A stretch of 58,092 bases of DNA from a virus: positions 1 through 58,092 of IMG/VR virus record IMGVR_UViG_3300042290_000649; one strand, given 5' to 3'. The number at the start of each line of letters is the position of its first letter. Position 1 is the first letter of the stretch. Below the pieces are notes generated by a model. It was not told the DNA's origin and made no database searches. It saw nothing but the letters and a program-made list of their open reading frames with translations. This document shows, one piece after another, positions 20,801-57,996 of this stretch. The position numbers were made by a program, and so were the translations under genes.

Positions 20801-23800
20801 ATATCTGGTTGCAAGGATTTCTTTATCAATTGCCCTAATTCTTGCTAGTTTCGCCGCCTCTGCCGTAGTGAGGATTGATGGCATTGCCTGCCTGTCTGTC
20901 GAACTACCAACGATTGCTCCGCCCTCATAGGTTCTAGTTGTGGTGGTCTTAAACTTGTCTTTAGTGGCGTCCTCAAGCATCTGAAGTCGGGACAATTCAG
21001 AGTCTCCGCCAAGTTTCTTTCTCTCGGCCTCAAGGGCGCTTAGTTTCTGTCGCTGCTCAAAGAATTGATCAAAGAGTTTGTAGCCAAGTTCTGAACCAAA
21101 CTCATCCATGAGTTCTCGTCTGCTTGACTTCAAGTCAACCTTTGGCGTCAGTTCTTTTGCTCGCTTATTAAACGCATCAAAGTATTCGACGGTCTTAGCA
21201 AGGGCATCTTTCAGTTGCTGGGCGGACCAGCCAACCATTTCGTCGATGCTCTTAATGACGCCAGCCTCAAGCATTGCATCAATCGGGTCAATTCGGCCAA
21301 TCTGGGTTAGCGTTTGCATGACGAGGGAGTTGTACTTTGTATCCCCTCCGCCAATTCCCGTTCCCATCTCCACTGCCTTGTATCCAAGCAGATCGGTAAA
21401 ACTCTTGCCCGGTTCGACGATAGTCTTTCCGTCTTCGCCCACTTTCTGGGTCGCCGTAACCTGCGCGGCGTCATACGAAACCAGTCGCGCAATACCGCCC
21501 TTGTACATCTCTCTAATATTTCCAAACTCGTCGGTGTAACTGTTGGCAGTTTCAACCTTGAGGAGAGTCGCATAATCAAGAAGTTTTTGTGAAGCCGCAG
21601 AAAGAAGAGCCCCGCCGTCTTTTGCTTCTTGCAGTTGCTTAATAACACCCTCAAAGTTTTTTCCAGATTGCAGGTACTGACGCAACTGCGCATCGTCAAA
21701 CGCTGTACTTGCATTTTGCTCTTTGTTAAACGCAAATCCTGCCAACTGAAGAACCTGGTTCATCCCTAGGCCCTTATCGCTTTTATTGGTTGGGTTTGTA
21801 ATTTCTGTAAGGTTGAGTGTTCTCAATTCGTTTGCAGTTTGTGGGAGATCTGGGAACATTGCCGCAAAAGCGTTTGGATCTACGCTGCCTGCGGCAATAG
21901 CGGCTTTTTGCGCAATGAGTTTGTCATATGCGGCATATTGCTCTGGGGTGGCACCGATGCCGCTTGAAGCCGTGGTTGGAACATCTACGTATCCCATGCC
22001 CGTTGCCTTTGATCGGTTTGCAACGTCGTCTTCACCGGTATAGATGTAATTTCCTGCAGAGTCTTTCTCAAAGATATTCTTTGTCATCCTCAGGTTCATC
22101 ATTATTTCGCTATTAATGGCAGCAATTGCGTTCGTCATTTCGGTGCCGCCATCGATGCTCCCGCTCTTGTCGTAGTCGTAGAGGGTCAAGATATCTTTGC
22201 GGGAAAGTTGGTTTGTCAATTTTTCTGTATTAACATCCTTTGGAAGCGACTGAACACCGTTAACAATGAAAGGAATTCCCCCAGCACCTTCGCCAGTCAG
22301 GCCAAGCGACTTGTCAATCTTTGACTGGAGTTCTGCTGCGGCCTTTGCATCTTCTTCGCTTAGGCCAAGTTTCTTATTGGCTTCAATTCGCGCTTTCTGC
22401 TGCTCAACGGCCGCCTCAGACCCGCGAATAATCGAGTCGGCCATGCTGCCCGCAAGTTCCCCGATCATGCTGCCGATTGCTGGCCCAATAATTGGTCCGA
22501 TAATTGGAATCATTCCACCAACGCCCATCCCAATCATTGATCCAATGCCGTTTCCGAGTGACTGGAATAGTCCGGACTTTTGAGACAACGTCTGCTTCAA
22601 GTCTGGTCCAAGGATGTTTCCCATGCCAAACATTTCTAGACCAGCAAGCACTGCATTTGGCATTCCTGCTGCGCGCGAAGATGCAGATCCGATACCGAGG
22701 AGTGCGCCGCCCTGGCTTAGCATCCCGCCAAGTCCTGCTAGTTTTCCAAACGCGCCACCACGCATCGTTCGGCGTGAGGCGACAACGTTCTCTGAAACTC
22801 TTCGCTTGGTAATATTGCCATCCTTGCCAGTGTAGTAGTACCCGCCATCTTCTCCCTGCTGAATTTGCGAAAGACCAGTTCCAGCCCCGCCAAGTTTCAC
22901 CGTTTGCAACTTATTAAGAAGGGGAACATTCTTGATGAGTTGCGCAGTCTTCTTGTTAATAACGTCATAGAAGTTTGACATTGCCGCAGCCATCTTCTGG
23001 ATCATGCCTACGCTTCCTCCCTTTAGCGCGGCCGATGAAATACCACGAGCACGTACTTTCTCAAGTTCTTCGCTTTCGCTCTTTGTAAGTTTTGAGTCAC
23101 CAGATGCGACTCGCTTTCCGACCTCTCCATAAATAAGTTTCTGAACTTCCGGCGGAAGGGTCTCAATTCTTCGCATGTCTCGCTTAGAGAGTTTTAGGCC
23201 ACCGGAGTGGAATTCCCCAAGCAGCGTGCCAATTTCGTCATCGCTGACCTTCCCAAGTTTCCGCTTATCCCCCTTTGCCCGCATAAGCATTGGGAGAATC
23301 ATGCGGCCTTCCTTGCTCTTCTTAAATTCTGCAATTACCGCATTTGCCTCACCTGTTTTTCCGGAATCCATCAGGCTCTTGTAGCGGGCCGCCATTGCCT
23401 CAACTTTTTCGAAGGCCTTGGTCATGACATAACTTGCTTCTCGCTCAATTAGGACAAGCGTTTCAAAGTTCTTACCCCATGCCGTTGTGTACTTGTTTGC
23501 ACTGGCATCAAGTTTCCCGTCCTTCATTCCTGGAATTTCAAGAATTCCGGCGTTGGATAGTTGCATGCCGAGGTCTTGCAGGACGCCGCCCTTCTGGAAC
23601 GACTCAAAGCGACTCTGCAATTTCTGACCAGTAAACACAGGGGACATGTGTCCTGGGCCGCTATCTTGATGCCTTAGCGTAAAGCCATCACCAAAGTCCG
23701 GGGCCATTGCACCAAAGATTTTCTCCCTAGGCTGTGTAAGGATTCCCTTGAGGAACCCAAGCGGACCACGGAATACTGTGTCCTCTACATTCCCAAGGAA

Positions 23801-26800
23801 GCCCTTAACCTTACCCCCTGCGGCAACCATGCTAGTTGCTCGTTCGCCGGTCTCCGGATCAGGGTACCCCTGGCTGTTGATCTTTTCTGTTGCGCGATTG
23901 TAGTTAATTATTGGCTTCCCATTTTTGTCCATTAGAACTTCGCCGTTGTCCCCCTTGACGTAATCCCTTGCCGAAATCTTTTCGGCCCTTAGGTCCGCGT
24001 GTCGGTCGGCGGTGAGTCTTACAGCGCTACCATATTTTGTAACGGCATCTGACGCGGAGTTCCACGCAGTCACAATCCCCGCAATTGGCTTTGCAAGCGT
24101 TGCGGTTGCCACCTGCCAAAGCATGGTTGCTGTCTTAAATGCAATAAATATACCGAGCAGCAAGCCAAGTATTGGGGCAAACGGGGTAAGAACCTTGAGC
24201 AGCAATGAGAATGTTCCAAGCAAGACAGTAAGGAACGGCATGAGTGCGCCAATTGCAACGGCCATGCTGGCAATAAAGGATGATATTGCAGAAGTTGCAA
24301 GTTCTTTTGCAATAGTTGCCAATGCGTCAGCAATGATAGTGATAAAGCCCTTGATTGAGTCGACAAATACCGAAAGGTATGTGCCAAAGCCAAATGTATT
24401 CTTTCTAATTGCGTCCGCGAGCCCAGAAATTGCCACAATGATTAATGTAATTGTTGCAATCATTGGGTTTGCCATAATGGCCTTTGCGAATATTGTTCCT
24501 AGCGTTGCGGCGGTTGCAAGCCCCCTGCCGACCTTGTCGCTAAGGATGTCGCCAATCAAAGCAAGGCCAGAGCCAACCTTGTCTACAATGTCCGTAAAGA
24601 CGGCGCCAAACTGGCTTCCGCGCTCAAGTGCAGCGCCAAAACCGCCAACGAAAACGTTAATGAATATCTGTGCAACCTTCTCCAGCGCTGGGCCAAACCC
24701 CTTGAGGCTATTAACAAAGTTGGCCACATTCTTTGCAAAACTTTCTATGAATATAGTGATCTGCTGGGACTTGAGCATGAACTGTCCAAGTTCAACAATG
24801 GTGTCTCGGACGGAGTCATAGAGCGGCTTGAATGCCATCGCCATGAAGTTTTGTGAAAGGTCGGCAATTGTTGAGAGGGCACCCGTCATTGTCCTTGATA
24901 GTCGGTCTGCAGATCCCTGGTATTGCCTGTCCATCCCCTCGGTGATTGCGCGAGCAGCAACAGAACCCATAAGGAATCCGCGCTTCGCCATGTTTCTGAT
25001 AAGTCCCTCTGCTCGCTTTGGATCTTTTAGCGTCTCGATCATTTGATCCATAGTGCCGAACGACTTTACAAAGTTTGCGCTCCCGATCACGCTTTGCAGA
25101 CGCTTCATTTCATCAATAACGTAATCCGGAAGGCCAGAAAGTTCTCCCATTGCGTACTTCTTGAGGGCAATAAGGTCGGTAAGCATCTTCTCGGATAGCA
25201 TTCGGTATCCCGCGACACCGGCGTTTGCCAACTGCATCATGTCGTTCTGGTAGACGCGACCAGCAGAGTTCATCTGCCCAAGGGCGTACGCAATTCTGTC
25301 GATCTTCTCGTCGTTTCCACCGAGCGCCGCGACAGCGTTGGAGATAGCGTTGACCATGTCTGGAATTTCTCGCGCTTCGAATCCGAACGCCTTCATCTTG
25401 AGCGAGGCCTCTACAAGCGGCTGGAACCTGAACGGCGTTACGTTAGCGATATCCCTGATTCGCGCCACCATGTTGTCGGCAGCCTTTGATGTAAGAAGCA
25501 GGGCCTCATTGAAGGTAAGGGCTTGCTCCTTCATGAATCCAATCTGAACCCCAACCGAGTTATATGCGGGGACCAGATCGTTTTCTGCGCTAGTTGCCGC
25601 TTGTAGCGTGTTTGCAAACAGCGTGTTGAAACCTACTGTCGTATTTTCAAGAACTTGGTTGAACTTAAATACGCCGGACTGCAGGTGCTCAACAACCGTA
25701 GCGATCTCTCGACCAATTTGCTGAACGAACAAGAATGTCGCAGCCCTTCCGACTTGTGTCTTTAGGGACCTGATAATTCCCGTGTTTACATTCATGTAGG
25801 TGCCGAGCGCCTTGGTTACGTTCTCTGCTGCCTGCTGTTGTTTCTGCATCATCAATGACGACTGGTCGATGTTCCCAGTTAGATGTAGAACCTGCGGTCG
25901 AAGTTCTCTATAAATATTCGAAAGTTGCTTGAGGTGCTCCATCCCCTTATAAACATTTTCAAGGTTTGGCGCCTTGTATCCCTCGTCACCCCAGCCACTG
26001 CCCCCACCGCCCGGTGCGCTTCCGTCACCTGCATCATCGCCGCCTGCGCCCTTACCGGCGGCGGTCGATTGAATCTCTTGCTGGATCTTGAGTTTTCCTT
26101 GACGCGACATTGCAATAAGAAGAGCAACTTCTTCTCCAAGTTTGTCAAAGTCTTCGGCTATCTTGATAAGTTCCTGACGCTTAAGACCATCTGGGAGCCA
26201 CGTAGCATTACCAATTCTCTGCGCAACAGCGGCCGGGGTCCCGGCATTTTCCTTCTCGCCCATGATTGGCATTGCTTTTTGCGACCTAAGTTTTTCGCTC
26301 TGCTCGGCGATTCCGTCTAGGTATGTCAGGAGGTCCTTAAATCCACCAACATTAGATTCAATAATTTGTGACTTAAGCGCATCCCTGTCGTAGGAGATTC
26401 CTACTTTTGCACCCTCATCCACTTTTGCGTTAACCATCTTTTCAACTTCTTCAGCAATTCTGGCGACAATTGCCTCAAGGGCCGGTAGTTTGCTGCCAAG
26501 ACCGATACGCGCAATGGCCTCGTTTACTTCGGCATCAACCCTAGAAGTATCATCGGGCTGCTGCCCATCTCCGGCTGGTGGCGTTGGCGGCGCTGGTGGC
26601 CTGCTTGGTGGCGCTGGAGGGCCTGCGGGGGCCGCTGGCCTTGCTGGCGCTGCTCCTTGCGCTGGAACCTGTTGCTGACTTTCTGCAACCGTAGCCCTCT
26701 CAACTGCAGCAACTCGATCCGACTCCACGGCGGACGACTCAATTGCGGCAGCCTCTTGCTCCGCTGCGACTGCCGCCTTCTTAGCGGCTGCGCGTGCTCG

Positions 26801-29800
26801 GCGCTGGGCGGCAACACGTTCTTTTCTTGCAGCGTTATCTGCAACAACCTGCGCGTCATACTCTTCCTTGGTTGGCTCTGCTGCTGTTTTGGGTGCCTCT
26901 GCAGCCTTTGTCGCAGCCTCTTCAGCCTTCTTTGCCTCTTCTTCTTTTGCTTTTGCTTTCGCTGCATCAGCCGCGTTCTTCCTGTCGGACGCTGCTTTTT
27001 CCCTTGCCGCTGCGGCAGCGGAGCGGGCCTGCTGATCATCGTGAATCTTTTTCAATCGAGCGGCATCAGCGGCGTTTAGTTCTGCAATCTTGGCCTCGTC
27101 TGCATCCCTCTTTCTCTTTGCAACGACCGAGGGGTCAACACGTGCCGCCTCGTCGGGGCTAAGGCCAACTTCTGCACCCTCATCAATCTGTGCCTCCATC
27201 GGTGTTTCCAGGCGCGCCCTTGGGTCTTGCTTCCTGGCCCTCTTGCGCGCCGCTTCAGCCCGAGTCCCAGCGGTCTTGAGTCGCTCCTCGTCCCGCTTAG
27301 CGTTTCTGGCCATGTCCCTTTCTTGCCTTTCACGAATGAGTCCCTCGGTCTGCGCTGGCGTTAGCGTGGCAAGTTCATCGGTGCTAACGCCAAGTTCTTC
27401 TGCCTGATCAATCTCTGCCTCTCGTGGAGTAATGAGGCCGGAAAGCATATCCGCTCCGGCCGGAGTCTTCTTCTTTCTTGGCTTCTTTTCTTTCTTCGGC
27501 TTGGGCTTCTCTTCTTCGACTGGGGCGTAGGTGTCTGATGAGTCCTCTTCGAAAGATCCATCATCATCTGGCACGTCATCTTCGGAAGTCTCCGCCGCCT
27601 GCTTGCTTTTCTCTTCATTTGCCGCAATGATGTTTTTCAGTTTGGCAATCAGGCTGGCAACGACGCGCTGCTCTCCCGCCGGTACCGGCTCGCCAGCCTG
27701 GCGTCGATCCTTTTGCACGTCCTCCTCGTTGAGCACCATGTCGAGCAACTCTTTGGCGTCTTCGTTGTCCACGTCTAGCGTGCTGCGTCCCGCAACAATC
27801 TGAGCCATGATGTTATTCCAGGTTCTAGGTTTGTCCGACTGCTCCATGCCGCGCTGCTCTATCAGGTCCTTCTGCGCAGAGGTCAGCGCCAACTTCGAAC
27901 CGCCCTCGCGCGGCTCGATGGACGCCCATTCAGGAGGTAGCGTTGCTACTGGCGGTGGGAGGCGGGGACCTGCCTCTACTGTTGTGCTATCGGGAATCCT
28001 ACGCTCCAATTCCGCCGCTGCTTCCCCGGGCGGCAACATCTGAGTCGTATCAACCTGAATCTCATCTGCCTGCTTGGCCCTCTCTTCATCGCGCTTCTTT
28101 TTCATCGCGGCAAAATCGAACGTAAGCGGAATTTCTTCCTCACCGCCTGCGCCGAGAGGAACTACTCCCCCTTCTCTCTTGATCTTTCCAAGTTGTTCCG
28201 GCCCACCCTCTGTCTCCATCTTCCCAAGTTGTACTGCGTCGTCTTCTTCCTCACCGAATCCGTAAATCTGTCCGCGCTGCGCCTTAAGGCGTGCCTGCAT
28301 TAGGAGAATGTTTCGCCTTATTCTTTCTATCGGGAAAAGTTTTATTGTTTTGTTGCCGTTGCCCTTATCCTCTTCCTCCGTTGGCATCTCACCGCTTTCC
28401 AGTTCAGGCATAACATTCGCCAGGGCCGTCAGCAAGATTTGCTCCGCGATGCGGTCATCTATAACTTTTCCGTCGGACTTAAGGCCGCCCATTTGATTTT
28501 GAATCGATAGGGCGTAGTCTATGATTTCTTGCGGTATTCCTGCAGATAGGACATCGTCAGTCCTGGATATACCCCCGCCCAGTCTTGTGAGCCCGGCAAT
28601 GCCCGCCGCGCTGGGCGGCATGCCGCCAACAAAACCTGCGATATCAGGTCCCTTGTTGATAATTGCGTTTTCCAGGGACTCTCTTACTAGTGCGTACTGC
28701 CGCTCATCGGCCTTTCTTTCCTCTACCTCTTTCTTATTTAGCAATCCTATTCTTGCTTCATCAAGTTTCGACTCTGACGCGATAAGGTCGTCAATTTGCT
28801 TATCAAGACCTTGTGCGGTTTCCCTTAGGGTTGCCCTATCTTCCTCTGATCCATTGTCGTATTCGTCGGAGTCGTATATTGCGTCAATCTGTTCTTGCAG
28901 AGATTGAATTTTTGCGCTTGACGCCTTCAAGGCTTTGTCTATTTCGGCCAACTTGTCTTGGTCCTCGCCCGTAAAGGCCCCTACAGACTCCTGACGAGAA
29001 ATCTTCTTGAATGACTCATCGTAATCATCGCTAAACTCATAAGTTCTACTAAGGGGGACAAACCCGCGACCACGCACTCGGTCATGCGTAATCTGCTGCG
29101 ATTGCATCTTTGCCCGCTGCTCTTCTGAATATTGCGGTAGAAGGTTAATTTGATCCGCTCCAGAATACTCACCTCCGCGATACGCTCCGAGGCCACGCTG
29201 CTCTCGTGCGACCCCCAGTTTTACTGCTCGCTCTCTTTGGTCAAAAGGAATTACCTCGGTCAAATCAAATGCAGTTCCCAGCACCTCCTCACCCGGCTTG
29301 CGCGGATCAGTGAAACTCTGATCCCACATGCCAATCCAGGTGTCGACACCTGCCATAATTCTTGCGCGGATTTGCGCTTCGTTATCCTTAATAAATTTAT
29401 TAAGCGCCTCGCCAAGCCCCTTTGTGGTTGCAACAGAAGTTTTTGGAACGTTCTGGTCTACTCCGCCCGCCTCTTGCTGCGTTCCGCCAACAAGGTATCC
29501 CTCTTCCGGCTCAACGTTTTCAACAATAATTTGACCTTGCTTATCAATAGCAAGTTTTCTTGTTAGGCCGTCAGTAACAGCGGCGAGGATCTCCTCTGTT
29601 TTCATTGCCTCACGTGGCGCTTCGGCTTCTTCTCCGTATCCGTATGTTCTACTAATGCCTCCCCTGACGGACCCGATTGATGACCTTCTTGCATCGGACT
29701 CTAGATATGCCTCCCTTCCTGGGGCGGAGAGTCCACCAAACTTCTCAGCAACAACGTCTAGTGTTTCCTGCGTGAAGGTTCCGGTCCTTGGCGCAACTCC

Positions 29801-32800
29801 TCGATGATGCCCTTGGGTGTGACCATTCAATTGTGCCATAACGTTTGCAAGGTACTCGCCCGTAAATTTGTTGATATGCGCTATCCATTGTTCATACGGA
29901 GCGTCTTCGCTAATCGCCGGAACGTTCATGACATAGTCAGAAAGGATTCTCCGTAGTTTTGCACTGACTTCGCTGGGCAAATTATTGCCTGAGTTCTCAA
30001 GCGTCTCTTGGATTTTCATCATGTAGTCATAGATCGCCTCGTGAATTGGCTCGATGTCGCGGCTCAGGCCAACCGACCCCCTGCCGCCAATTGCGGCCAT
30101 GTGCCCACCTTCGTGTGAGGCGATAGCGCCAAAGCCCATCATTGGAACCAGTTCGCCGTCCTTCTTTGTGCGCATTTTTTCTGCTACTTGGAGCGATGCG
30201 TATGTTTGGTATCCGCCGTCAGGCTGCTCAACGCCCCTTGTGACATGAGAGTACCCAGGAGCATTTTGATACGTATCGTCTGTGCTATCCACCGTCGTAA
30301 CGCTTATGCCACGATTGACCGTTGGAATCTTCGCAAGCAAAGCAAGCAGTTCATTTGCCGCAGCAAAGGCCGCCGAATCCGCCGATACTTCATCTCCCTT
30401 GTGGACAACGGTAACTATTGCCTTGTCCGGTAGCGGTGGCAGATCTCCCCTATCCGCCGTAGTTGCGTGCGACTGGTCTACTTCTACCTGGGAGACTTGC
30501 AATCCCATTGATGCAAGGTAGTCAAGAACTGTCTGCGCAATAATTTTTGCCTCTGCCAATGAAACATTTTCGTTGTCTTTTGGATCTTTAACCCCCTTAC
30601 GGGCTGCATCGTCTTGCAGGTCATACGGGATCATGCCCATCCCGATAGATTGAATCTGCTCCGGTGTCAGCCCTTCAAGCGACGTAATCCTATTGAATTG
30701 AGACATTGCTGGGGTAAGCGGCGCTGTTTCCATGTTCCGTTGCATGACTGGGGCTGGGCGACCGACGCCTTGAGATGTTCTTACCGGGTCAAATACGTCA
30801 TATCCGTAAACTCTTGAGGAGCCATCGCCAAGTTGTGGGGCATCCGAAGCAAGGTCAGGGATGTATTCCTTAAACGCCGCTATTCGTTGCTTAAGCAACT
30901 CAAGATCTATTTTTGCCTGTCGCTCTTCTTCTGCAAGTTGCGAAAGAATCTCTGGGTCTTGTCCTACCAACTCAGCAAGCAGGGGGAAATTGCCAAGAAC
31001 TTCCATAATCTTTGGAACTCCCTGGATAATCTCGGCAAACTTTGTTCGGGTCTCAGCATTTCCAAGGTCGAACTTCCCTGGCTCAGCAGAAAGTGCCTTC
31101 AGATCTGCACGCTTCGCCTTGCCACCAACGGTTCCCTCTCCCGGTATCATTGCCCGCAGGGCATCCGGGTCCAGTAGATTCCTTGCCATCGCCTCTGCAA
31201 GAATCTTAGTAATTTCTTCTGGATCACCAGCGGTAACTGTTTCCGCTATTGCGCGGAGTTGCGATTCCTCTGCTGCCGCACCGTAATCGCCAAAGGGAAC
31301 ACCTGGTACATCTGCGCGACCGGTACCCGCGCCCCTTGTCTGCTTTACCGAGTAGGCATTTTTTGATGCCTGGGTCAAGGCATCTAGATTTGTTATAAGC
31401 GGCGTTAGAATATCCCTTGCAACAACTGCGGCAAGCGCGGGGCGATCGGATTCTGAAACCGCACCAGAAGTCGCAGCGCCGCTTTTAACGAAATCTAGTG
31501 CGCCAAGAACGCCGCCGCCTCCCTGGCCAAGAGCACCAACAACATCCTTGATTCTCTGCATCGCCGCCGCCGATTCTCTATTCATCTCACTTGGGTCAAT
31601 CTTCATCTTCTGCACTGCAGCCATGATGCTCATTAACCCAACAAGGTGATCACGAAGTTCTGATGCAATTTCTGGCTTTACCGTCTTACCAGACGAAAGC
31701 GTTGCTGTAATTTCAGCAAAAAGTGCTTCAATATTCACCACCGTGCGATCGACAGTATCTACAAACTCGGCGAGATCTTTTCCAGTTGCGGTAACTGTTT
31801 GAAGTTCAATTCCTCTCTTGCCTGTTTTTTCGATTCTTGTCGAAAGCATGGCGGCAACAGGATTGCCGATTTCCTCGTTTCTAACTGCCCCATCTTCTTC
31901 TCGGCTGTATGATGGATACGGCGAAAAGAGTTGGCTTACCCTTGCCAGTGCCAGGGGGTTTTGAACCCCGGCAATTGGGCTTCTTGATGGCCTCAGGACG
32001 CCCGTTTCCTCATCCTCAATAACCCCAAGTTGCCGGTCTTCTTCTATACCAATAGCGGCAAGAAGACCGGAAATTCCACCAGATGCTTTTACTCCACCCT
32101 TTGAAATTTCCCTAAGTTCTGCGCGAATAGTTGCAAGGCGCTCCGCTTCTACCTCTGTCCTGTTTTCAATTGCAGCAAGTTCTGTTTCTTCTATCTCTAG
32201 AAGTTGCACTCGCGCTCTGGCAATTCCCTTCGAAACACCGGTTGTTCCAATTTCCCTAAGATCGCCAGACGGCAGTACATCGCTAACGCTTCTGCCGCCG
32301 CTGCGGAGCCTGCGCATCCGCTCTTCAACTCCTCGGTCTTCATCTTCACGGCTAGAGACCATTGATATTGCCCTAAGGGCGGGGCTGCTCTGAATTGCCC
32401 TGCCGATGGCGGCCTCGGCGGCGATCCTTGCGGCGCCCTCCGGTACCGGCTCTGGGGGCAACGCGCCGCCTCGCAGGACTTCCACATCGGACTTCTTCCT
32501 GCGCCCAGTTGCTCTACCCGGCGTGTACGCCTTAGAAAGGATTTGATTACGGAATTCAGCGACCTCTTCATCAGTTCTTGGGGCTGCCGCCTTGAACTCC
32601 TCAATCATAGTGGCGGCAATTTCCTTCATGAACGTCTTGATCAACTTGTCAAAATCGATCTCTCCGATCACATCTTGAACCGCCTCTTGTATCCTTCTTT
32701 GGGCATCGATAACTGCAGAGGAGTACGCAACTTTCGCTTCTGCAATTTTTCTATCAAGTTCTTCCAATAGGGGAGTTGAAGATCGCAGGCTCGGCGTCCC

Positions 32801-34441
32801 TGCTTTTTCTAGCCTATCCAACTGTTCACGGAGTTGAGCATCTGATCGACCTTCCGGGTCCCTGATTGGCGCGCCAGAAGTTTTGACGCGGCCGTCCATA
32901 AATATCGGCTTTTCATATTCGCCAATTTGCCCCCGGGCTTTTGCCAGTTCTGTTTCTAGTCTTGCAAGACGATTACGCAATGCAGCAACTTCTGGAGATC
33001 TAAGTACTGACTCCGCAGCGCGTGCATCTGCTTCAATTTTTTCCTCTGGTACCCACTGTGTTGGGGTTTTGCTTACTATTTCTGGCCTGTTATCCAGCCT
33101 TTTTATTAAATCAAGAAGTTTTGCTGACTCGGCCGCGCCGAATACCGCAGCAGCACCTCGGCCGCCACGAAGAGCAATTGTCTCTTCCTGGAAATCAATG
33201 CTACTTCGGGCTTCAAATTCTTGCTCTCTTGCAGCAGCAAGTCTCTCACCATAAGGGCGCGCAGCAGACTGGTCTTTCTTTTGTCGAAAACTTTTTGTCC
33301 CGTCTGGCTCCTCAACCACATCGTAAGCGCGCTTGTTGTATTCAGGTTGAACTTTTGCAATTTCTTCTCTTGCAGCAGCAAGTCTTGCCGAATCGGCTCG
33401 AACCTGCTCTTCTATTTTTGCTATTTCACCAGAGATTTGAGCAATGTGCCTAAGATTGCGCGTTAATTCAGAAATGTCGTCGGAAGCGCTTGCGGTGCGC
33501 AGTTTTTCGTATTGAGCCCTTGCCCCACCCTCAAGTTTTTCCGGCTTATCAACTCTGTTCTTCTTGAGGATCGCCTCCATTCCGGCCTTTGCCGCATCTT
33601 GCAAGGCCTTTATGGAGGAGTCGATTTCTTTCTGAACCTCTGGCGCACGAGTGCCAGTCTCAACAAGTATTTCTTTCTTTCCAGAACTTCCAACCCTTGT
33701 GGGTGCTTCCCCCCTGGTAGCATCTATTATCCTTTTGTTTTCAATCGTAAATTCAGCCTGGGGAACAATGGCACCCAATTCTTTTTTAAGTCGAGCAACC
33801 TCATCCTCGGCCTCTTTTAACGACTTTGGGTCGATAAGCGGTCCGGTGTACGGCTTTAGTCTTGTGGACTCCTGCAATGCAAGGGTGATGTCGAGTCTCG
33901 ATTGCTCTGCTCGCGCTGATGCGGCCGTCTCATTTTCCCTTGCAAGGGCGGCCGCTGCCTCGTTCCGTAGGCGGACTAATTCACCAAGCGCAGCGCGCTG
34001 GGAATCAATGGCCGACGAACTCTCCTCCTCAATCTTCTTAACGCGCGCGGAAGCGGCCTCCAACTCCGGCATAGAGTCAAGCCTGGCCTTTACCGCCCTG
34101 GCAACATGCGCGGCGGCAAGGGCCTCCTGCCTACCCTGTGCCTCTATCGCAGCAGCGCGAGCCGCATCGAGTTGAGCGCGCCTCTTTGCTGCTGCCTCTG
34201 CAAACGAAGCCGTTTCTTCCGGCGTTGCCATTTTGAGTTTTGAGGCAGCGTCTACGGCCTTTTTTGCCGTCTCCGCAGCGCCGAGCGCCGTCTCTGCTGC
34301 CTTAGTTAGCCCATCAATAGAATCGGCAACGCTCTCAATGGATTCGGCAACTGCGTCAATCTCGGTTGCTGACTGACTTGCGCCGACGACATCAATATTT
34401 ATCTTTATGTCTTGATCGTCGTTACCGCCGAAGTCATCCAT
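17813..34441 (-). CDS. Giant tail tape measure protein with embedded metallopeptidase motif
   Basis: At 5542 residues this is one of the largest tape measure proteins known. The start (ATG 34439-34441) follows AAGGGA. The first ~700 residues are Ala/Glu/Arg coiled coil. Around residue 1443 is HEGGH, an HExxH zinc-peptidase motif. A domain near 1700-1760 (DTWIGMWDQSF, GTAFDLTEVIPFDQRERAVK) resembles modules of phage polyvalent/MuF-type proteins. A long charged helix and Pro-rich linker span about 2380-2640. The tape-measure core lies at about 2930-3210 (NTTVGFNTLFANTLQA; AFGFEAREIPDMVNAISNAV). Hydrophobic segments follow at about 3320-3450 and near 3980. It sets tail length and probably enters the cell envelope during ejection. 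Confidence 0.93.
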   Translation of the reverse strand: MDDFGGNDDQDIKINIDVVGASQSATEIDAVAESIESVADSIDGLTKAAETALGAAETAKKAVDAASKLKMATPEETASFAEAAAKRRAQLDAARAAAIEAQGRQEALAAAHVARAVKARLDSMPELEAASARVKKIEEESSSAIDSQRAALGELVRLRNEAAAALARENETAASARAEQSRLDITLALQESTRLKPYTGPLIDPKSLKEAEDEVARLKKELGAIVPQAEFTIENKRIIDATRGEAPTRVGSSGKKEILVETGTRAPEVQKEIDSSIKALQDAAKAGMEAILKKNRVDKPEKLEGGARAQYEKLRTASASDDISELTRNLRHIAQISGEIAKIEEQVRADSARLAAAREEIAKVQPEYNKRAYDVVEEPDGTKSFRQKKDQSAARPYGERLAAAREQEFEARSSIDFQEETIALRGGRGAAAVFGAAESAKLLDLIKRLDNRPEIVSKTPTQWVPEEKIEADARAAESVLRSPEVAALRNRLARLETELAKARGQIGEYEKPIFMDGRVKTSGAPIRDPEGRSDAQLREQLDRLEKAGTPSLRSSTPLLEELDRKIAEAKVAYSSAVIDAQRRIQEAVQDVIGEIDFDKLIKTFMKEIAATMIEEFKAAAPRTDEEVAEFRNQILSKAYTPGRATGRRKKSDVEVLRGGALPPEPVPEGAARIAAEAAIGRAIQSSPALRAISMVSSREDEDRGVEERMRRLRSGGRSVSDVLPSGDLREIGTTGVSKGIARARVQLLEIEETELAAIENRTEVEAERLATIRAELREISKGGVKASGGISGLLAAIGIEEDRQLGVIEDEETGVLRPSRSPIAGVQNPLALARVSQLFSPYPSYSREEDGAVRNEEIGNPVAAMLSTRIEKTGKRGIELQTVTATGKDLAEFVDTVDRTVVNIEALFAEITATLSSGKTVKPEIASELRDHLVGLMSIMAAVQKMKIDPSEMNRESAAAMQRIKDVVGALGQGGGGVLGALDFVKSGAATSGAVSESDRPALAAVVARDILTPLITNLDALTQASKNAYSVKQTRGAGTGRADVPGVPFGDYGAAAEESQLRAIAETVTAGDPEEITKILAEAMARNLLDPDALRAMIPGEGTVGGKAKRADLKALSAEPGKFDLGNAETRTKFAEIIQGVPKIMEVLGNFPLLAELVGQDPEILSQLAEEERQAKIDLELLKQRIAAFKEYIPDLASDAPQLGDGSSRVYGYDVFDPVRTSQGVGRPAPVMQRNMETAPLTPAMSQFNRITSLEGLTPEQIQSIGMGMIPYDLQDDAARKGVKDPKDNENVSLAEAKIIAQTVLDYLASMGLQVSQVEVDQSHATTADRGDLPPLPDKAIVTVVHKGDEVSADSAAFAAANELLALLAKIPTVNRGISVTTVDSTDDTYQNAPGYSHVTRGVEQPDGGYQTYASLQVAEKMRTKKDGELVPMMGFGAIASHEGGHMAAIGGRGSVGLSRDIEPIHEAIYDYMMKIQETLENSGNNLPSEVSAKLRRILSDYVMNVPAISEDAPYEQWIAHINKFTGEYLANVMAQLNGHTQGHHRGVAPRTGTFTQETLDVVAEKFGGLSAPGREAYLESDARRSSIGSVRGGISRTYGYGEEAEAPREAMKTEEILAAVTDGLTRKLAIDKQGQIIVENVEPEEGYLVGGTQQEAGGVDQNVPKTSVATTKGLGEALNKFIKDNEAQIRARIMAGVDTWIGMWDQSFTDPRKPGEEVLGTAFDLTEVIPFDQRERAVKLGVAREQRGLGAYRGGEYSGADQINLLPQYSEEQRAKMQSQQITHDRVRGRGFVPLSRTYEFSDDYDESFKKISRQESVGAFTGEDQDKLAEIDKALKASSAKIQSLQEQIDAIYDSDEYDNGSEEDRATLRETAQGLDKQIDDLIASESKLDEARIGLLNKKEVEERKADERQYALVRESLENAIINKGPDIAGFVGGMPPSAAGIAGLTRLGGGISRTDDVLSAGIPQEIIDYALSIQNQMGGLKSDGKVIDDRIAEQILLTALANVMPELESGEMPTEEEDKGNGNKTIKLFPIERIRRNILLMQARLKAQRGQIYGFGEEEDDAVQLGKMETEGGPEQLGKIKREGGVVPLGAGGEEEIPLTFDFAAMKKKRDEERAKQADEIQVDTTQMLPPGEAAAELERRIPDSTTVEAGPRLPPPVATLPPEWASIEPREGGSKLALTSAQKDLIEQRGMEQSDKPRTWNNIMAQIVAGRSTLDVDNEDAKELLDMVLNEEDVQKDRRQAGEPVPAGEQRVVASLIAKLKNIIAANEEKSKQAAETSEDDVPDDDGSFEEDSSDTYAPVEEEKPKPKKEKKPRKKKTPAGADMLSGLITPREAEIDQAEELGVSTDELATLTPAQTEGLIRERQERDMARNAKRDEERLKTAGTRAEAARKRARKQDPRARLETPMEAQIDEGAEVGLSPDEAARVDPSVVAKRKRDADEAKIAELNAADAARLKKIHDDQQARSAAAAAREKAASDRKNAADAAKAKAKEEEAKKAEEAATKAAEAPKTAAEPTKEEYDAQVVADNAARKERVAAQRRARAAAKKAAVAAEQEAAAIESSAVESDRVAAVERATVAESQQQVPAQGAAPARPAAPAGPPAPPSRPPAPPTPPAGDGQQPDDTSRVDAEVNEAIARIGLGSKLPALEAIVARIAEEVEKMVNAKVDEGAKVGISYDRDALKSQIIESNVGGFKDLLTYLDGIAEQSEKLRSQKAMPIMGEKENAGTPAAVAQRIGNATWLPDGLKRQELIKIAEDFDKLGEEVALLIAMSRQGKLKIQQEIQSTAAGKGAGGDDAGDGSAPGGGGSGWGDEGYKAPNLENVYKGMEHLKQLSNIYRELRPQVLHLTGNIDQSSLMMQKQQQAAENVTKALGTYMNVNTGIIRSLKTQVGRAATFLFVQQIGREIATVVEHLQSGVFKFNQVLENTTVGFNTLFANTLQAATSAENDLVPAYNSVGVQIGFMKEQALTFNEALLLTSKAADNMVARIRDIANVTPFRFQPLVEASLKMKAFGFEAREIPDMVNAISNAVAALGGNDEKIDRIAYALGQMNSAGRVYQNDMMQLANAGVAGYRMLSEKMLTDLIALKKYAMGELSGLPDYVIDEMKRLQSVIGSANFVKSFGTMDQMIETLKDPKRAEGLIRNMAKRGFLMGSVAARAITEGMDRQYQGSADRLSRTMTGALSTIADLSQNFMAMAFKPLYDSVRDTIVELGQFMLKSQQITIFIESFAKNVANFVNSLKGFGPALEKVAQIFINVFVGGFGAALERGSQFGAVFTDIVDKVGSGLALIGDILSDKVGRGLATAATLGTIFAKAIMANPMIATITLIIVAISGLADAIRKNTFGFGTYLSVFVDSIKGFITIIADALATIAKELATSAISSFIASMAVAIGALMPFLTVLLGTFSLLLKVLTPFAPILGLLLGIFIAFKTATMLWQVATATLAKPIAGIVTAWNSASDAVTKYGSAVRLTADRHADLRAEKISARDYVKGDNGEVLMDKNGKPIINYNRATEKINSQGYPDPETGERATSMVAAGGKVKGFLGNVEDTVFRGPLGFLKGILTQPREKIFGAMAPDFGDGFTLRHQDSGPGHMSPVFTGQKLQSRFESFQKGGVLQDLGMQLSNAGILEIPGMKDGKLDASANKYTTAWGKNFETLVLIEREASYVMTKAFEKVEAMAARYKSLMDSGKTGEANAVIAEFKKSKEGRMILPMLMRAKGDKRKLGKVSDDEIGTLLGEFHSGGLKLSKRDMRRIETLPPEVQKLIYGEVGKRVASGDSKLTKSESEELEKVRARGISSAALKGGSVGMIQKMAAAMSNFYDVINKKTAQLIKNVPLLNKLQTVKLGGAGTGLSQIQQGEDGGYYYTGKDGNITKRRVSENVVASRRTMRGGAFGKLAGLGGMLSQGGALLGIGSASSRAAGMPNAVLAGLEMFGMGNILGPDLKQTLSQKSGLFQSLGNGIGSMIGMGVGGMIPIIGPIIGPAIGSMIGELAGSMADSIIRGSEAAVEQQKARIEANKKLGLSEEDAKAAAELQSKIDKSLGLTGEGAGGIPFIVNGVQSLPKDVNTEKLTNQLSRKDILTLYDYDKSGSIDGGTEMTNAIAAINSEIMMNLRMTKNIFEKDSAGNYIYTGEDDVANRSKATGMGYVDVPTTASSGIGATPEQYAAYDKLIAQKAAIAAGSVDPNAFAAMFPDLPQTANELRTLNLTEITNPTNKSDKGLGMNQVLQLAGFAFNKEQNASTAFDDAQLRQYLQSGKNFEGVIKQLQEAKDGGALLSAASQKLLDYATLLKVETANSYTDEFGNIREMYKGGIARLVSYDAAQVTATQKVGEDGKTIVEPGKSFTDLLGYKAVEMGTGIGGGDTKYNSLVMQTLTQIGRIDPIDAMLEAGVIKSIDEMVGWSAQQLKDALAKTVEYFDAFNKRAKELTPKVDLKSSRRELMDEFGSELGYKLFDQFFEQRQKLSALEAERKKLGGDSELSRLQMLEDATKDKFKTTTTRTYEGGAIVGSSTDRQAMPSILTTAEAAKLARIRAIDKEILATRYQVFKIGVLEDKRQSASEAIRNKAIQDEAALARFKSDYSAQLSIITTKITQNKSLTRDEIDLMEREAALRDKIFNLTEREVDLGQSLAILEGQGISISNKELLNNQALLQILARKADLQAIANKSSQSAVHWAQLEAQAKVQGMQLAEKQNDLSMARLEEMEKQNVTSFGDAAVAASRDAWWSETSQAQQRAYEAFMARTETLRKTIRLMETNLNSLNAKLKDNPYGYSAEELTKIRELVAQAQGALVGGDQGTTTAAAIQRNTSLLSTMASVAQKAYDRVKKAQQTTHDEYIKQLDEQGKAIDERYRKRTQEQTEKGLLEQLQLSGLQMRSDSADPIEAAKAFYDAKNNLAEFYIEKQKDDELKAIEDEKERYSKQFQENTDAQEQIYSASITRMQNRFEAVSKVLGMDSIPGETLNDMLRLTMTGTLPGMSEAMKRMSTTDIFKSILANAEDVATMGKQTLALGETMGNLEFGQFAAEGGTYSIPASLSNGLSAFNKFTSASGFNVFRGDNEESGLLATFMNEAVSAGLKYTDVGVKDSKTGLDKVFTGATAIRDYLKSIKPAGGFGTAEKDKEKYAVLEYAEALLSGKNTFGTTAKMAILAQRTLEQGLTDFETATKTNINMASILEADLSDEVINKFIAASGETPTAESVKKLRDMVRDTYADVLARFDLEEYVKFADSTDSRIGELSNTVDSLDDAMSHLAGTLGSAQKDLTTLDKILFGTTYDNTAPIPGIDAATEQLQSVTDAIEATRSAFESTMTNLEAYADSLQGPIGAFHQLAEAMALVAGITLPTTGTVAPTIPMRSLLQTPDGLEERMQRPVSEKYNPRGYYDGQGVSGHTNLPPGMVGHAMLLGVYDAVLDRVIREEDEMSDRLKARLKELEAIRFLGSEEPEDEYRQVTAMPVPPITEFNAELKARLAEYAAAFASSIQTVGINGAQTTVTMYNQIPITITINDAQDMNTADLAEQVEEAVGRAIRASGGSYISSPTGSISG

Positions 34442-44163: not shown

Positions 44164-46368
44164 ATGGCAGACGAACGCCCCAGCCTTCTGGATCGACTAC
44201 TTGGTCGAACCGAGCAGGTGGTTACTGCGCCCAAATCCGAAATCGGAATAATCCCGGACTGGGAGAACAGCCCCTACGCCCGTGCCGCAGTCGGGCAGGG
44301 CGGCGTAATGAAGCGCAGCGTTGCACAGTTGCGACGCTGGTCCAGAAACAACCCGTGGCTGCGCGCGGCAATTAACCTGCGCCGCCAGCAGGTGAGCCGT
44401 GCCCGTTGGGACATTGTGGATCTTGACGGCAACTCAAAGCCAAATCAAAAGATTGTTGACGAGTTGCGCTACATGTTCCGCCACCCAAACTCACGAGGCG
44501 ATTCATTCCGTTCGTTTATTGAGCCGGTGGTTGAAGACTTGCTCGTCCTCGATCAGGGCTGTATTGAAGTTGAGTTGACGCGTGGTTCGCGCGTGGGCAC
44601 AACTGGCTCGAAGAAGATTGCCAACCTGTGGCCAAAAGACGCAGGATTTATTGCGTTCGACCAAGATTGGGACGGGACGAGGAAGAACGACCCTCGCTAT
44701 TTCGAACTAGATGCGACTGGCAAGATCGTTGCCGAGTACCGCAATGACGAAATGGTTGTCTTGATTCACAACCCGGTAACGTATTCGCCGCTTGGTCTTT
44801 CGCCGCTAGAAGTTCTTGCTGAGACTATTGAGGCCGACCTCGCCGCCGCTGCCTATAACTCAAAGTCCGTCATGCAGGCCGCGCCTCCGGGAATCATTGA
44901 CCTCGGCGAGGGCATTCGCCCCGACCAGGTTGATCAGTTCAAGGCGTATTGGGAAGCAGAAATCGGCGGCAAGAGCATGGTTGCAATTGTTGGCGGCGGT
45001 AAGGGCGTTAAGTGGACGCCACTTGGTGCGTCAAACCGCGATATGCAATTTATGGAGTGGCAGATTTATCTGGCGCGAAAGATTTGTGCGGTGTTTGGCG
45101 TTCAGCCACAAGACATTGGTATTTCTTTTGACGTCAATCAGAGCACCGCAGAGGTTGGCGCAGCGTTTACTGCCGACAACGGCATCGCGCCACTGCTCGA
45201 CCTTATCGCTGAGTACCTAACCCGCGAAATCATTTGGCGCTTTGACGAGACCCTGCGCTTTGCCTACACCGATGTTGGTCGCGCAAGTCAGTCCGCAATT
45301 GCCGAGTACTACAAGGCTGCACTTGGCGGCCTTCCGTGGCTTCGCATCAATGACGCGCTTAAGGAGCGTGGTCAGGACGGCATTGGCGAGTACGGTGACG
45401 AGATTTGGGTAATGTCGCCAAAGGGCTACATGCCAATGTCTCTCTATATTGAATATCTTGAGCAAACATTGCTTGGCGAGAAGCCAGACGAAGAGCCCGA
45501 AGGCGAAGGCCCAGATGAAGATGGCCCAGATGAAAATGGCGGCGGCGAGGGGGAACCATCCCCCGAGGACGCAACAGACCCAGAGACAATGCGTCCGGAA
45601 AACCCACAGATGGGACCGAACCAGCAACCAGCAGACCAGAAGGCCGCTGGTAGGCCTGTAATCACGTGCGACATTGATGGAACGCTAACAACGCCAAGCG
45701 GCCCAATCGAAAACACTGTTGATTTCCTGCTCGACCAGGCGGATGAGTTCGCAATCTACATTCTTACCGCACGAAGCGAAAGCAAGCGCAGTGAAACAGA
45801 GGCAATGCTAAGCAAGTTTGATGTTCCATACGATCGACTCATCATGAACGACACGGGCGAGCCGCAACCCGTGTTCAAGAAGCGCGTGATGAAAGAGTTG
45901 ATGGCGAATAACGACATTGCTTTTGCGATTGAGAACGACGAGGCAGTTCTTGCCGAGTATCGAAAACTTGGCGTGAAGACAATGACTCCGGCCCAGGTTC
46001 CTGATGATCCAGAGGATGCAGAGAAGGGATTGCTTAAGTCGGTTAACCTCACCGTTCCAAATGGCGTCAAGGTTGAGGCCGCGCGTGGTCTTCTTTGGCG
46101 CAAGCAGTTTGGTCGCGGCGGTATTGGCCCAGGTCAGCGCACCGCGCGCATGCTGATTGGCAACAGGATGACAATTGCTCGCGTGAAGAAGATGAGCGCT
46201 TATCTCGCTCGCCATGAAGTAGACAAGAAGGGCGAAGGATTTAGCCCAGGAGAGCCAGGATATCCATCAGCGGGCAGGATCGCATGGGCCCTGTGGGGTG
46301 GCGATGCTGGTCAGTCTTGGACTGCCAAGGTAATGCGATCATTAGAGGCGCAAGAGCGAAAGGACTAA
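44164..46368 (+). CDS. Portal protein fused to a HAD-type phosphatase domain and a C-terminal DNA/assembly domain
   Basis: This 734-residue protein has a portal domain at residues 1-430 (NNPWLRAAINLRRQQVSRA; YSPLGLSPLEVLAETIEADL; FGVQPQDIGISFD). An acidic linker (EEPEGEGPDEDGPDENGGG) follows. Residues ~498-610 are a HAD-type domain with D503-I-D505-G-T (CDIDGTLTTPSGP) and IYILTARSESKRSE, like the 3'-phosphatase half of polynucleotide kinase. The last ~105 residues (EAARGLLWRKQFGRGG; ARHEVDKKGEGFSPGE) form a domain often found in phage head-maturation proteins. The portal ring conducts DNA. The HAD domain could act on DNA ends or nucleotides, which is inference. Confidence 0.88.
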   Translation: MADERPSLLDRLLGRTEQVVTAPKSEIGIIPDWENSPYARAAVGQGGVMKRSVAQLRRWSRNNPWLRAAINLRRQQVSRARWDIVDLDGNSKPNQKIVDELRYMFRHPNSRGDSFRSFIEPVVEDLLVLDQGCIEVELTRGSRVGTTGSKKIANLWPKDAGFIAFDQDWDGTRKNDPRYFELDATGKIVAEYRNDEMVVLIHNPVTYSPLGLSPLEVLAETIEADLAAAAYNSKSVMQAAPPGIIDLGEGIRPDQVDQFKAYWEAEIGGKSMVAIVGGGKGVKWTPLGASNRDMQFMEWQIYLARKICAVFGVQPQDIGISFDVNQSTAEVGAAFTADNGIAPLLDLIAEYLTREIIWRFDETLRFAYTDVGRASQSAIAEYYKAALGGLPWLRINDALKERGQDGIGEYGDEIWVMSPKGYMPMSLYIEYLEQTLLGEKPDEEPEGEGPDEDGPDENGGGEGEPSPEDATDPETMRPENPQMGPNQQPADQKAAGRPVITCDIDGTLTTPSGPIENTVDFLLDQADEFAIYILTARSESKRSETEAMLSKFDVPYDRLIMNDTGEPQPVFKKRVMKELMANNDIAFAIENDEAVLAEYRKLGVKTMTPAQVPDDPEDAEKGLLKSVNLTVPNGVKVEAARGLLWRKQFGRGGIGPGQRTARMLIGNRMTIARVKKMSAYLARHEVDKKGEGFSPGEPGYPSAGRIAWALWGGDAGQSWTAKVMRSLEAQERKD

Positions 46369-52631: not shown

Positions 52632-52664
52632 CAACCCCCAGGGGAAACCTTGGGGGTTGTTTTT
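52632..52664 (+). terminator. Rho-independent terminator after SSB
   Basis: CAACCCCCAGGG and CCTTGGGGGTTG form a 12-pair stem (one G-T wobble) with a GAAA tetraloop, followed by TTTTT. It ends the replication/recombination transcript, with partial read-through needed for the thioredoxin gene unless that has its own promoter. Confidence 0.9.
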
Positions 52665-52692
52665 CCCCCAAAACAGCCACAAGGAGCGCCCC

Positions 52693-53717: not shown

Positions 53718-53798
53718 CTAGCCGCGCCGCATCACGGCGAGGATGACGATCCAAGTAGCCGCGATGTAGGCGAGGGTGAGCAGTCCCTCGCCGCTCAC
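53718..53798 (-). CDS. Membrane microprotein (26 residues), cassette 1
   Basis: The GTG start (53796-53798) overlaps the TGA of the 73-residue gene by four bases (GTGA), and the frame ends at TAG 53718-53720. The peptide is a short polar head and one hydrophobic helix with a conserved tryptophan (LLTLAYIAATWIVILAV) and a basic end (MRRG). It resembles the two 21-residue peptides at 54432 and 57293 in start codon, overlap, helix and position before a terminator. Function unknown. Possible roles are membrane targeting of host factors or a small toxin. Confidence 0.62.
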   Translation of the reverse strand: MSGEGLLTLAYIAATWIVILAVMRRG

Positions 53799-54016
53799 GC
53801 CTCCACCTCGCGGAGTGCCTCGCGTACGGCTGCCGTATGAGCCGCGCACGCTGGGACTACGAGGGCTGCCGTGCGGCGCGCGCCGTAGAGTCCGTGCGTT
53901 GGCGGGTACTGCTCGGCGACGCTGACGCTGACGAGGGCGACCGCGCCCTCGCCGCACGCCGTTGCGCCGCACGAGCGAACCTGATCCGATCCGAGCCGTG
54001 TGATTGTTGCGCTCAT
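53795..54016 (-). CDS. Small early protein, cassette 1
   Basis: This 73-residue protein starts at an ATG with GGGAGGCACT upstream. It contains scattered cysteines (RSCGATACGEG, VPACAAH) and an Ala/Val-rich middle (AVALVSVSVAEQ), ending in a helical acidic segment. No family is recognised. Its mRNA leader of about 180 nt contains the pseudoknot and tandem repeats. It is translationally coupled to the membrane microprotein. Confidence 0.62.
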   Translation of the reverse strand: MSATITRLGSDQVRSCGATACGEGAVALVSVSVAEQYPPTHGLYGARRTAALVVPACAAHTAAVREALREVEA

Positions 54017-54032
54017 AGTGCCTCCCGATTGT

Positions 54033-54080
54033 GTGCCGTAGTGAGTAGAGGGGGCGACGCGCTACGGCACGCCGCCCCCT
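54033..54080 (-). ncRNA. Predicted H-type pseudoknot in the leader of cassette 1
   Basis: In minus-strand order the leader reads AGGGGGCG (54073-54080), two bases, GTGCCGTAG (54062-54070), five bases, CGCCCCCT (54049-54056), seven bases, CTACGGCAC (54033-54041). The first pairs perfectly with the third (8 bp) and the second with the fourth (9 bp), in interleaved order. Loop lengths of 2, 5 and 7 suit an H-type pseudoknot. The last stem ends about six bases before the GGGAGG ribosome binding site, so folding could control translation. The two stems could also be alternative hairpins. Confidence 0.6.
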
Positions 54081-54091
54081 TGCCAGAGTGA

Positions 54092-54127
54092 GACTGACCG
54101 CCCGACTGACCGCCCGACTGACTGCCA
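54092..54127 (-). repeat. 12-bp tandem repeat, leader of cassette 1 (GACTGACCGCCC, three units)
   Basis: Three 12-bp units (plus strand GACTGACCGCCC twice, then GACTGACTGCCA) lie between the predicted transcription start near 54197 and the pseudoknot, so they are in the leader RNA. They share the GACTGAC core with the second array at 54152-54187. Confidence 0.75.
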
Positions 54128-54151
54128 CCATTGCGCCGTAGCGAAGAGGAT

Positions 54152-54187
54152 GGACTGACTGCGGGACTGACTGCGGGACTGACTGCT
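54152..54187 (-). repeat. 12-bp tandem repeat, leader of cassette 1 (GGACTGACTGCG, three units)
   Basis: Three 12-bp units GGACTGACTGC(G/G/T) begin about 10 bases after the predicted transcription start. Both arrays are 12 bp in period and share GACTGAC. They could bind a regulator as DNA or RNA. Confidence 0.75.
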
Positions 54188-54202
54188 CCCCCTGACTGCT
54201 TC

Positions 54203-54235
54203 ACTATCTCACCCCGCCGCCCTGAATCCACCGAA
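54203..54235 (-). promoter_or_regulatory. Early cassette promoter p1 (divergent copy)
   Basis: The shared TTCGGTGGATT (54225-54235, minus strand) stands 16 bp before GATAGT (54203-54208), the same geometry as the five other copies, which have CATTGT. It drives the 73-residue gene and its microprotein. There is no GTGTGG before the -10 box, and the usual 5' hairpin is replaced by tandem repeats. Just upstream, 54245-54292 is a 12-bp (A/G)CGCCGAAGGGC-like tandem array. Confidence 0.55.
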
Positions 54236-54344
54236 GGGCGACGCACGCCGTAGGGCACGCCGAAGGGCGCGCCGAAGGCGACCCGAAGGGTGAAGAATAG
54301 GAAGATGGAAACCACGGGAAGGCGGGCATAGGTTATGCGTAAGA

Positions 54345-54379
54345 CATAACACATAACACATAACACATAACCCATAACC
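54345..54379. repeat. 7-bp repeat array R1 (CATAACA/C, five units)
   Basis: Five units in direct tandem: CATAACA three times, then CATAACC twice, followed by CGCCAGAAAC and the cassette 2 terminator. It lies between terminator and next promoter like R2-R4. Confidence 0.85.
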
Positions 54380-54395
54380 CGCCAGAAACAAAAAA

Positions 54396-55233: not shown

Positions 55234-55331
55234 GCCGCCGAGGTGCTCCCCGAAGGGTGAAGCGCACGCCGAAGCGCGGCGGATTCTTTCGGATTGGATT
55301 ATGGGGATACGGGTACGGGTAAGCGTATACA

Positions 55332-55366
55332 CATAACACATAACCCATAACCCATAACACATAGCC
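55332..55366. repeat. 7-bp repeat array R2 (CATAACA/C, five units)
   Basis: Five tandem units: CATAACA, CATAACC, CATAACC, CATAACA, CATAGCC, followed by the shared CAGAAAC box and the cassette 3 terminator. TACGGGTACGGGTAA precedes it, as before R3 and R4. Confidence 0.85.
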
Positions 55367-55958: not shown

Positions 55959-55986
55959 GGTGAACGGGTACGGGTAATGGGTAATA

Positions 55987-56021
55987 CATAACGCATAACG
56001 CATAACGCATAACCAATAACC
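55987..56021. repeat. 7-bp repeat array R3 (CATAACG/C, five units)
   Basis: Five tandem units: CATAACG three times, CATAACC, AATAACC, then CCCCAGAAAC and the cassette 4 terminator. The last base of the unit differs between arrays while CATAAC is kept. Confidence 0.85.
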
Positions 56022-57114: not shown

Positions 57115-57202
57115 ACCCGCAACGGCACGCGGAGCCGAGCAGCAACGGCGAGGGCAGGGCGGATACGGAGCAATGGGGATACGGGTACGGATACGGGTAA
57201 TG

Positions 57203-57244
57203 GATAACTCGTAACACATAACGCATAACCCGTAACTCATAACC
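57203..57244. repeat. 7-bp repeat array R4 (six units, degenerate)
   Basis: Six units: GATAACT, CGTAACA, CATAACG, CATAACC, CGTAACT, CATAACC, then CGCCAGAAAC and the next terminator. It is more diverged than R1-R3, with TAAC invariant. TACGGGTACGGATACGGGTAATG precedes it. Confidence 0.8.
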
Positions 57245-57253
57245 GCCAGAAAC

Positions 57254-57933: not shown

Positions 57934-57996
57934 GGAAGCGATCACAGCGCCTCCTCTACTTCTACAATGCCACACCCCTGTGGTGAATCCACCGAA
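57934..57996 (-). promoter_or_regulatory. Early cassette promoter p6 with 5' hairpin
   Basis: TTCGGTGGATT (57986-57996) lies 16 bp before CATTGT (57964-57969), preceded by GTGTGG. The leader hairpin GGAGGCG-CTGTGAT-CGCTTCC (57934-57954) starts nine bases after the -10 box and pairs with one wobble. Confidence 0.68.

Follow-up and report, generated by a model that had tools for sequence, protein, structure and literature searches.

The last of a series of short minus-strand genes at the right end of an uncultivated tailed-phage contig is preceded by a leader of about 180 nucleotides, built around a 14-bp hairpin that, judged by compensatory changes, is selected as RNA. Bases of the hairpin could alternatively take part in an H-type pseudoknot ending just before the Shine-Dalgarno sequence. 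We put at about one in two the probability that this leader is a cis-acting element controlling the translation and/or stability of the mRNA for a 73-aa protein, acting through the hairpin or the pseudoknot. The window analysed, a contig of 58,092 nucleotides (58 kb), carries terminase, portal and capsid genes and an SSB-type ORF. The element and the genes it precedes are laid out as follows.

54080-54073, minus strand: 5' strand of the 8-bp stem, AGGGGGCG (sequence and folding)
54070-54062, minus strand: 5' strand of the 9-bp stem, GTGCCGTAG, after a 2-nt loop
54056-54049, minus strand: 3' strand of the 8-bp stem, CGCCCCCT, after a 5-nt loop
54041-54033, minus strand: 3' strand of the 9-bp stem, CTACGGCAC, after a 7-nt loop; the 18 bases that contain it, CTACTCACTACGGCACAC, are unchanged in the homologue
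54049..54080, minus strand: nested 14-bp hairpin with a CGUA loop (minimum free energy and covariation)
54021..54026, minus strand: Shine-Dalgarno sequence GGGAGG of the 73-aa gene (sequence)
53795..54016, minus strand: 73-aa gene, a small protein with Cys16/Cys21 and Cys57-x2-His60
53718..53798, minus strand: 26-aa membrane-type ORF with a GTG start, overlapping the 73-aa stop and conserved in the homologue L005

The initial annotation had described two perfect, interleaved stems of 8 and 9 bp with loops of 2, 5 and 7, ending just before the ribosome-binding site of the 73-residue gene. Its coordinates proved exact, with the element reading on the minus strand from 54080 to 54033. Continuing 3' of 54033, the sequence runs ACAATC, GGGAGG (54026-54021), CACT and ATG (54016), six bases separating the end of the 9-bp stem from GGGAGG. 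Two perfect, interleaved stems with short loops amount to H-type topology, in the sense of topology alone and without three-dimensional loop geometry.

Nowhere else in the window, on either strand, do perfect stems of 9 and 8 bp or more interleave with short loops. Shuffling gave no such pair in the whole window (294 dinucleotide shuffles, 200-base blocks) or in the leader alone (2000 shuffles); the early region averaged 0.0017 over 1154 shuffles. The low probability of chance occurrence claimed at first holds to that extent, but neither stem is independent of the other: the 9-bp stem draws on the inner arm and loop of the 14-bp hairpin. With the hairpin taken as given, shuffles of the 32 bases downstream of it contain by chance a 9-bp complement that takes in the loop in 1.5% (window) or 0.65% (homologue) of cases. 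Among real 32-base stretches of the early region, 2% would complement the hairpin tip equally well, because GCCGTAG is a common word here (13 copies observed against 5.4 expected). With the limit lowered to 7 bp for both stems, the window has one further interleaved pair (9 and 7), at 52632-52668, between the SSB-type and thioredoxin-like genes.

The initial annotation overlooked the nested hairpin, AGGGGGCGGCGTGC-CGTA-GCGCGTCGCCCCCT, which competes for the same bases as the interleaved stems. It is the minimum-free-energy fold of the element (-29.8 kcal/mol, ViennaRNA) and holds that rank in the window and the homologue alike. The 8-bp stem is its outer part, and formation of the 9-bp stem requires opening its inner four pairs. 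The hairpin tip, GUGCCGUAG, is perfectly complementary to CUACGGCAC, a conserved sequence between the hairpin and the Shine-Dalgarno sequence.

A single independent homologue turned up, on two near-identical contigs (L005 and L006) whose protein is 62% identical, and its leader can be aligned with that of the window. Over the 28 positions of the hairpin arms, 7 bases differ from L005, and 14 of 14 pairs are kept. Three changes are double and compensatory (A-U to G-C, G-C to A-U, and C-G to U-A), and a fourth converts G-U in the window to G-C in L005. Seven randomly placed substitutions would keep all pairs with probability 0.0003, and sliding the pairing by 1-3 columns destroys the agreement; a column-shuffle control (59/500) is weak, as the covariation sample consists of two independent sequences only. 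Read on the plus strand, two G-U pairs of the minus strand (one conserved, one G-C in L005) would turn into A-C mismatches, which identifies the mRNA strand as the one that folds. By these comparisons the hairpin is real and under selection on the mRNA strand. They also largely refute a reading that we consider scarcely credible, in which a GC-rich, word-repetitive spacer without function took this form by chance. The low complexity of the local vocabulary and a whole-leader fold stability that is unremarkable against shuffles (z -1.0 and -1.6) are in keeping with such a spacer, whereas the shuffle controls and the survival of pairing through seven of seven substitutions are not.

The three compensatory pairs all fall within the 8-bp stem common to hairpin and pseudoknot and fit both equally. 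The G-U/G-C pair 140-155, which varies consistently, is present solely in the nested hairpin. The 9-bp stem does not vary on either strand between the window and L005, so covariation neither supports nor refutes that stem. Of the two stems, only the 8-bp one shows the covariation put forward as a check at the outset, in a form that the nested hairpin fits as well. Homologues breaking both stems without compensation had been named as the finding that would speak against the fold; both stems are perfect in the sole independent homologue, so the fold survives this check. The stretch CTACTCACTACGGCACAC, between hairpin and Shine-Dalgarno sequence, is identical over 18 bases, compared with 78% identity in the hairpin and 50% in the Shine-Dalgarno region. 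The upstream repeat arm is also 93% identical between the window and L005, so the invariance of these 18 bases is suggestive only.

Searches for further homologues through the 73-aa protein (alone or together with L005), the neighbouring 150-aa protein and the thioredoxin-like protein returned the same two contigs. So did the repeat array, the promoter pattern (run against viral and genome contigs) and a gapped pattern of paired 9-mers, for which 16 stretches came up and only L018 and L026 had the element. No homologue came from a loose repeat pattern, a DNA search of phage records or a protein search with the neighbour protein. A covariance model of the element gave high scores for the window and L005/L006 only.

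Pseudoknot energies were estimated from stacking energies plus a Dirks-Pierce-type penalty, which is crude. The best pseudoknots score -30.7 against -29.7 for the hairpin in the window, and -31.6 against -30.6 in L005; the best variants have 11 + 7, 9 + 9 or 10 + 8 bp and a first loop of one base. A gap of about 1 kcal/mol in both sequences is equality within the error of the model, and with so crude a penalty both folds stay admissible on energy. Against the pseudoknot, the hairpin is complete before its complement downstream has been made, so that its inner pairs would have to be opened; and a first loop of 1-2 nt spanning a 7-9-bp stem is tight. Formation of a pseudoknot in the leader is plausible. 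What had been predicted as an H-type pseudoknot stands as a selected RNA structure before the ribosome-binding site, with a nested 14-bp hairpin of equal energy, within error, competing for its bases. An intrinsic terminator or attenuator was rejected, the bases 3' of the hairpin being CTCTACTC-like with no U run and the site absent from the terminator scan. An HDV-type ribozyme was also rejected, the 5-nt loop being too small for a P3 hairpin.

Each short minus-strand gene at the right end of the window belongs to its own unit, built from an intrinsic terminator, TTATG-type repeats, a pair of promoter-like elements, a short hairpin, a Shine-Dalgarno sequence and ATG. The last of these units comprises the 73-aa gene and the overlapping 26-aa ORF, and the element is part of its leader. 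The remaining features of that leader and its surroundings are these.

54082..54196, minus strand: long imperfect leader arm with 3 + 3 GTCAGTC copies at 12-base spacing (folding, repeats)
54143-54134, minus strand: C(UACG)G tetraloop hairpin capping the arm (folding)
54203..54211, minus strand: -10-like element TGAGATAGT, which is TGGCATAGT in L005 and TGGCATTGT in sister units
54225..54235, minus strand: upstream promoter element TTCGGTGGATT, common to the window's other leftward units and L005
54394..54427, minus strand: intrinsic terminator of the preceding unit (terminator scan)

The upstream terminator suggests a separate transcript for the 73-aa gene. About 30 leftward units in these phages carry the -10-like TGGCATTGT, at 57972, 57090, 56539, 55871, 55209 and 54211 on the minus strand of the window and also in L005, L032, L035 and L036. 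The element about 13-16 bases upstream of it is lineage-specific. The window and L005 have TTCGGTGGATT there, L032 has CTGCTCCATAGTAGGTTT, L035 a CTTAGCGGTGGGATCG-like sequence and L036 one containing CATAG. Being phage-specific, present in many copies and embedded in promoters, this site brings to mind the operator/stoperator sets of cluster A mycobacteriophages (PMC6550527); it might alternatively serve a phage-specific activator or sigma factor.

In nearly every sister unit a single short hairpin of varied sequence follows the -10-like element by about 8 bases and precedes the Shine-Dalgarno sequence, with 42-58 bases from -10-like element to ATG. Many of the 3' arms of these hairpins are pyrimidine-rich and could pair with the Shine-Dalgarno sequence. 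The leader of the 73-aa gene, of exceptional length, replaces the short 5' hairpin and is a special elaboration. The phage group has a well-ordered set of some 30 small independent units, this one with a complex leader, so leader-RNA control lends itself to direct comparison against plain sister leaders.

This setting also lends weight to a simpler account, to which we give somewhat worse than even odds: that only the nested hairpin forms, as an enlarged sister-type 5' hairpin serving mRNA stability or an open Shine-Dalgarno sequence, and that the 9-nt complement arose by chance. The hairpin is the minimum-free-energy fold in both sequences, the consistent pair 140-155 belongs to it alone, the sister leaders have their hairpin soon after the -10-like element, and the over-represented GCCGTAG allows a 9-bp complement in 2% of real early-region stretches. 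Stabilising 5'-terminal stem-loops of bacterial mRNAs are known for ompA, papA and aprE, from work cited in PMC3997798. Those resemble the present leader and its sisters in placing a stem-loop near the 5' end, or within the leader, of a short mRNA, but here the hairpin lies about 115 nt downstream of the likely transcript start, next to the Shine-Dalgarno sequence, and its tip has a downstream complement. That complement counts against accident, being perfect over 9 bp, taking in the whole loop and lying directly before the Shine-Dalgarno sequence; it is also unchanged in both sequences, within the 18-base identical stretch between variable flanks.

Upstream of the hairpin the leader adds an AGUC-repeat arm with periodic mismatches. 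Its six copies of GTCAGTC, grouped three and three within 54092-54183 on the minus strand, are nearly unchanged in L005, and the arm shows one double and two single changes against L005 that are consistent with pairing. An upstream copy, CGCTACGGCGC, could pair over 11 bp with the hairpin tip; it is better read as the UACG tetraloop hairpin that caps the arm. The regular spacing of the repeats and the conservation of the untranscribed spacer upstream, which matches that of the leader (134/142), are what would be expected if the direct repeats and palindromes bound a phage regulator as DNA, the RNA fold being incidental. We regard this as decidedly unlikely, given that compensatory changes and strand-specific G-U pairs require a single strand and that the repeats lie outside the 48 bases.

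Under the preferred reading, that of a cis-acting leader, we infer the transcription start, the formation of the pseudoknot, any effect on translation and any trigger. The structured 5' leader would head a short transcript encoding the 73-aa protein and the 26-aa ORF, and its ribosome-proximal core, the hairpin selected on the mRNA strand, would sit either as the nested hairpin or as the H-type pseudoknot at about equal energy. In the pseudoknot state the bases adjoining the ribosome-binding site would be packed, with the second stem ending six bases before the Shine-Dalgarno sequence, and the ribosome would be hindered; in the nested state those bases would be free. The state of the leader would then set the translation and/or stability of the 73-aa mRNA. 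Counting against this reading are the small sample of two independent sequences, the unremarkable stability of the leader as a whole and the lack of the element in L031, L032 and L036. That the leader responds to a ligand or a protein is speculation.

The leader looks like known 5' leader control elements in the way it would work, while lying outside every Rfam family. Rfam covariance models gave no match in the window at gathering score, and the preQ1 and SAM-II families gave none even at a relaxed threshold. The best sub-threshold hit in the leader, a RAGATH-16 match at 54188-54259 on the minus strand, across the promoter region, was rejected: it scores 27.1 against a gathering score of 65.6 bits, lies outside the 48 bases and is absent in L005. 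The preQ1 and SAM-II riboswitches are H-type pseudoknots placed before the ribosome-binding site. They share with the present element the classical H-type topology next to a Shine-Dalgarno sequence, but here Rfam gives no match and the 73-aa gene is no known metabolic gene.

The gp32 protein of phage T4 is a zinc protein. Its gene resembles the present one in having, on a phage mRNA, interleaved stems or pseudoknot potential upstream of the ribosome-binding site, short repeats in the leader, and a product with possible zinc-binding residues. The gene 32 operator of T4 and RB69 has a pseudoknot of about 28 nt at the 5' end, followed by more than 40 nt of less structured UUAAA/UAAA repeats before the start codon, and gp32 binds its own leader pseudoknot, making this an autogenous translational operator with repeat sequences (PMC535899). 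In contrast, the possible pseudoknot here abuts the Shine-Dalgarno sequence and competes with a nested hairpin of 14 bp, the GC-rich repeats lie upstream, and the A+U-rich spacer is lacking, only 16 bases (ACAATCGGGAGGCACT) running from 54033 to ATG. The 73-aa protein is also no SSB, the phage having a separate SSB-type gene. By analogy with gp32, the phage's own Cys/His protein is a candidate driver of a change in fold. The full version of this idea, a two-state switch bound by that protein, which would repress its own translation as a second viral autogenous pseudoknot independent of T4 gene 32, seems to us unlikely.

No Pfam, PHROGs or PDB family matches the 73-aa protein, whose predicted structure is poor (pLDDT 46.6) and was left unused. 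Differences from L005 by codon position (18/13/32) show a third-position excess. C21, C57 and H60, in window numbering, are invariant in five syntenic relatives, and the protein possibly binds zinc. An overlapping 137-aa ORF (54131-53718) was rejected, because conservation of its protein does not extend across the body of the 73-aa gene. The label of early gene in the initial annotation is read from layout only.

Four more relatives (L031, L032, L035 and L036) have the neighbouring 150-aa gene, and their next unit encodes a distant homologue of the 73-aa protein with Cys21, Cys57 and His60. The element is absent from L031, L032 and L036, which have an ordinary short leader with one small hairpin. 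In L035 the leader of the homologous gene (8931-9056) is different, with about 125 nt to ATG, so the leader of the 73-aa gene has been elaborated in two lineages. The L035 leader can form interleaved stems of 8 bp (GCCCTGCT/AGCAGGGC) and 6 bp (GGCGGG/CCCGCC), as can 27 of 2000 shuffles; a pseudoknot of these was set aside and differs from the predicted fold of that leader.

Elsewhere in the window, TTATG-type tandem repeats (gttatgtgttatgt) occur at 54330-54380, 55325-55365, 55985-56020 and 57195-57245, after terminators and before promoter-like elements. A 5542-aa ORF at 17813-34441 is probably a tape measure protein. The portal protein (44164-46368) is an unusual fusion, its C-terminal residues 490-617 matching polynucleotide kinase families (phrog_415).
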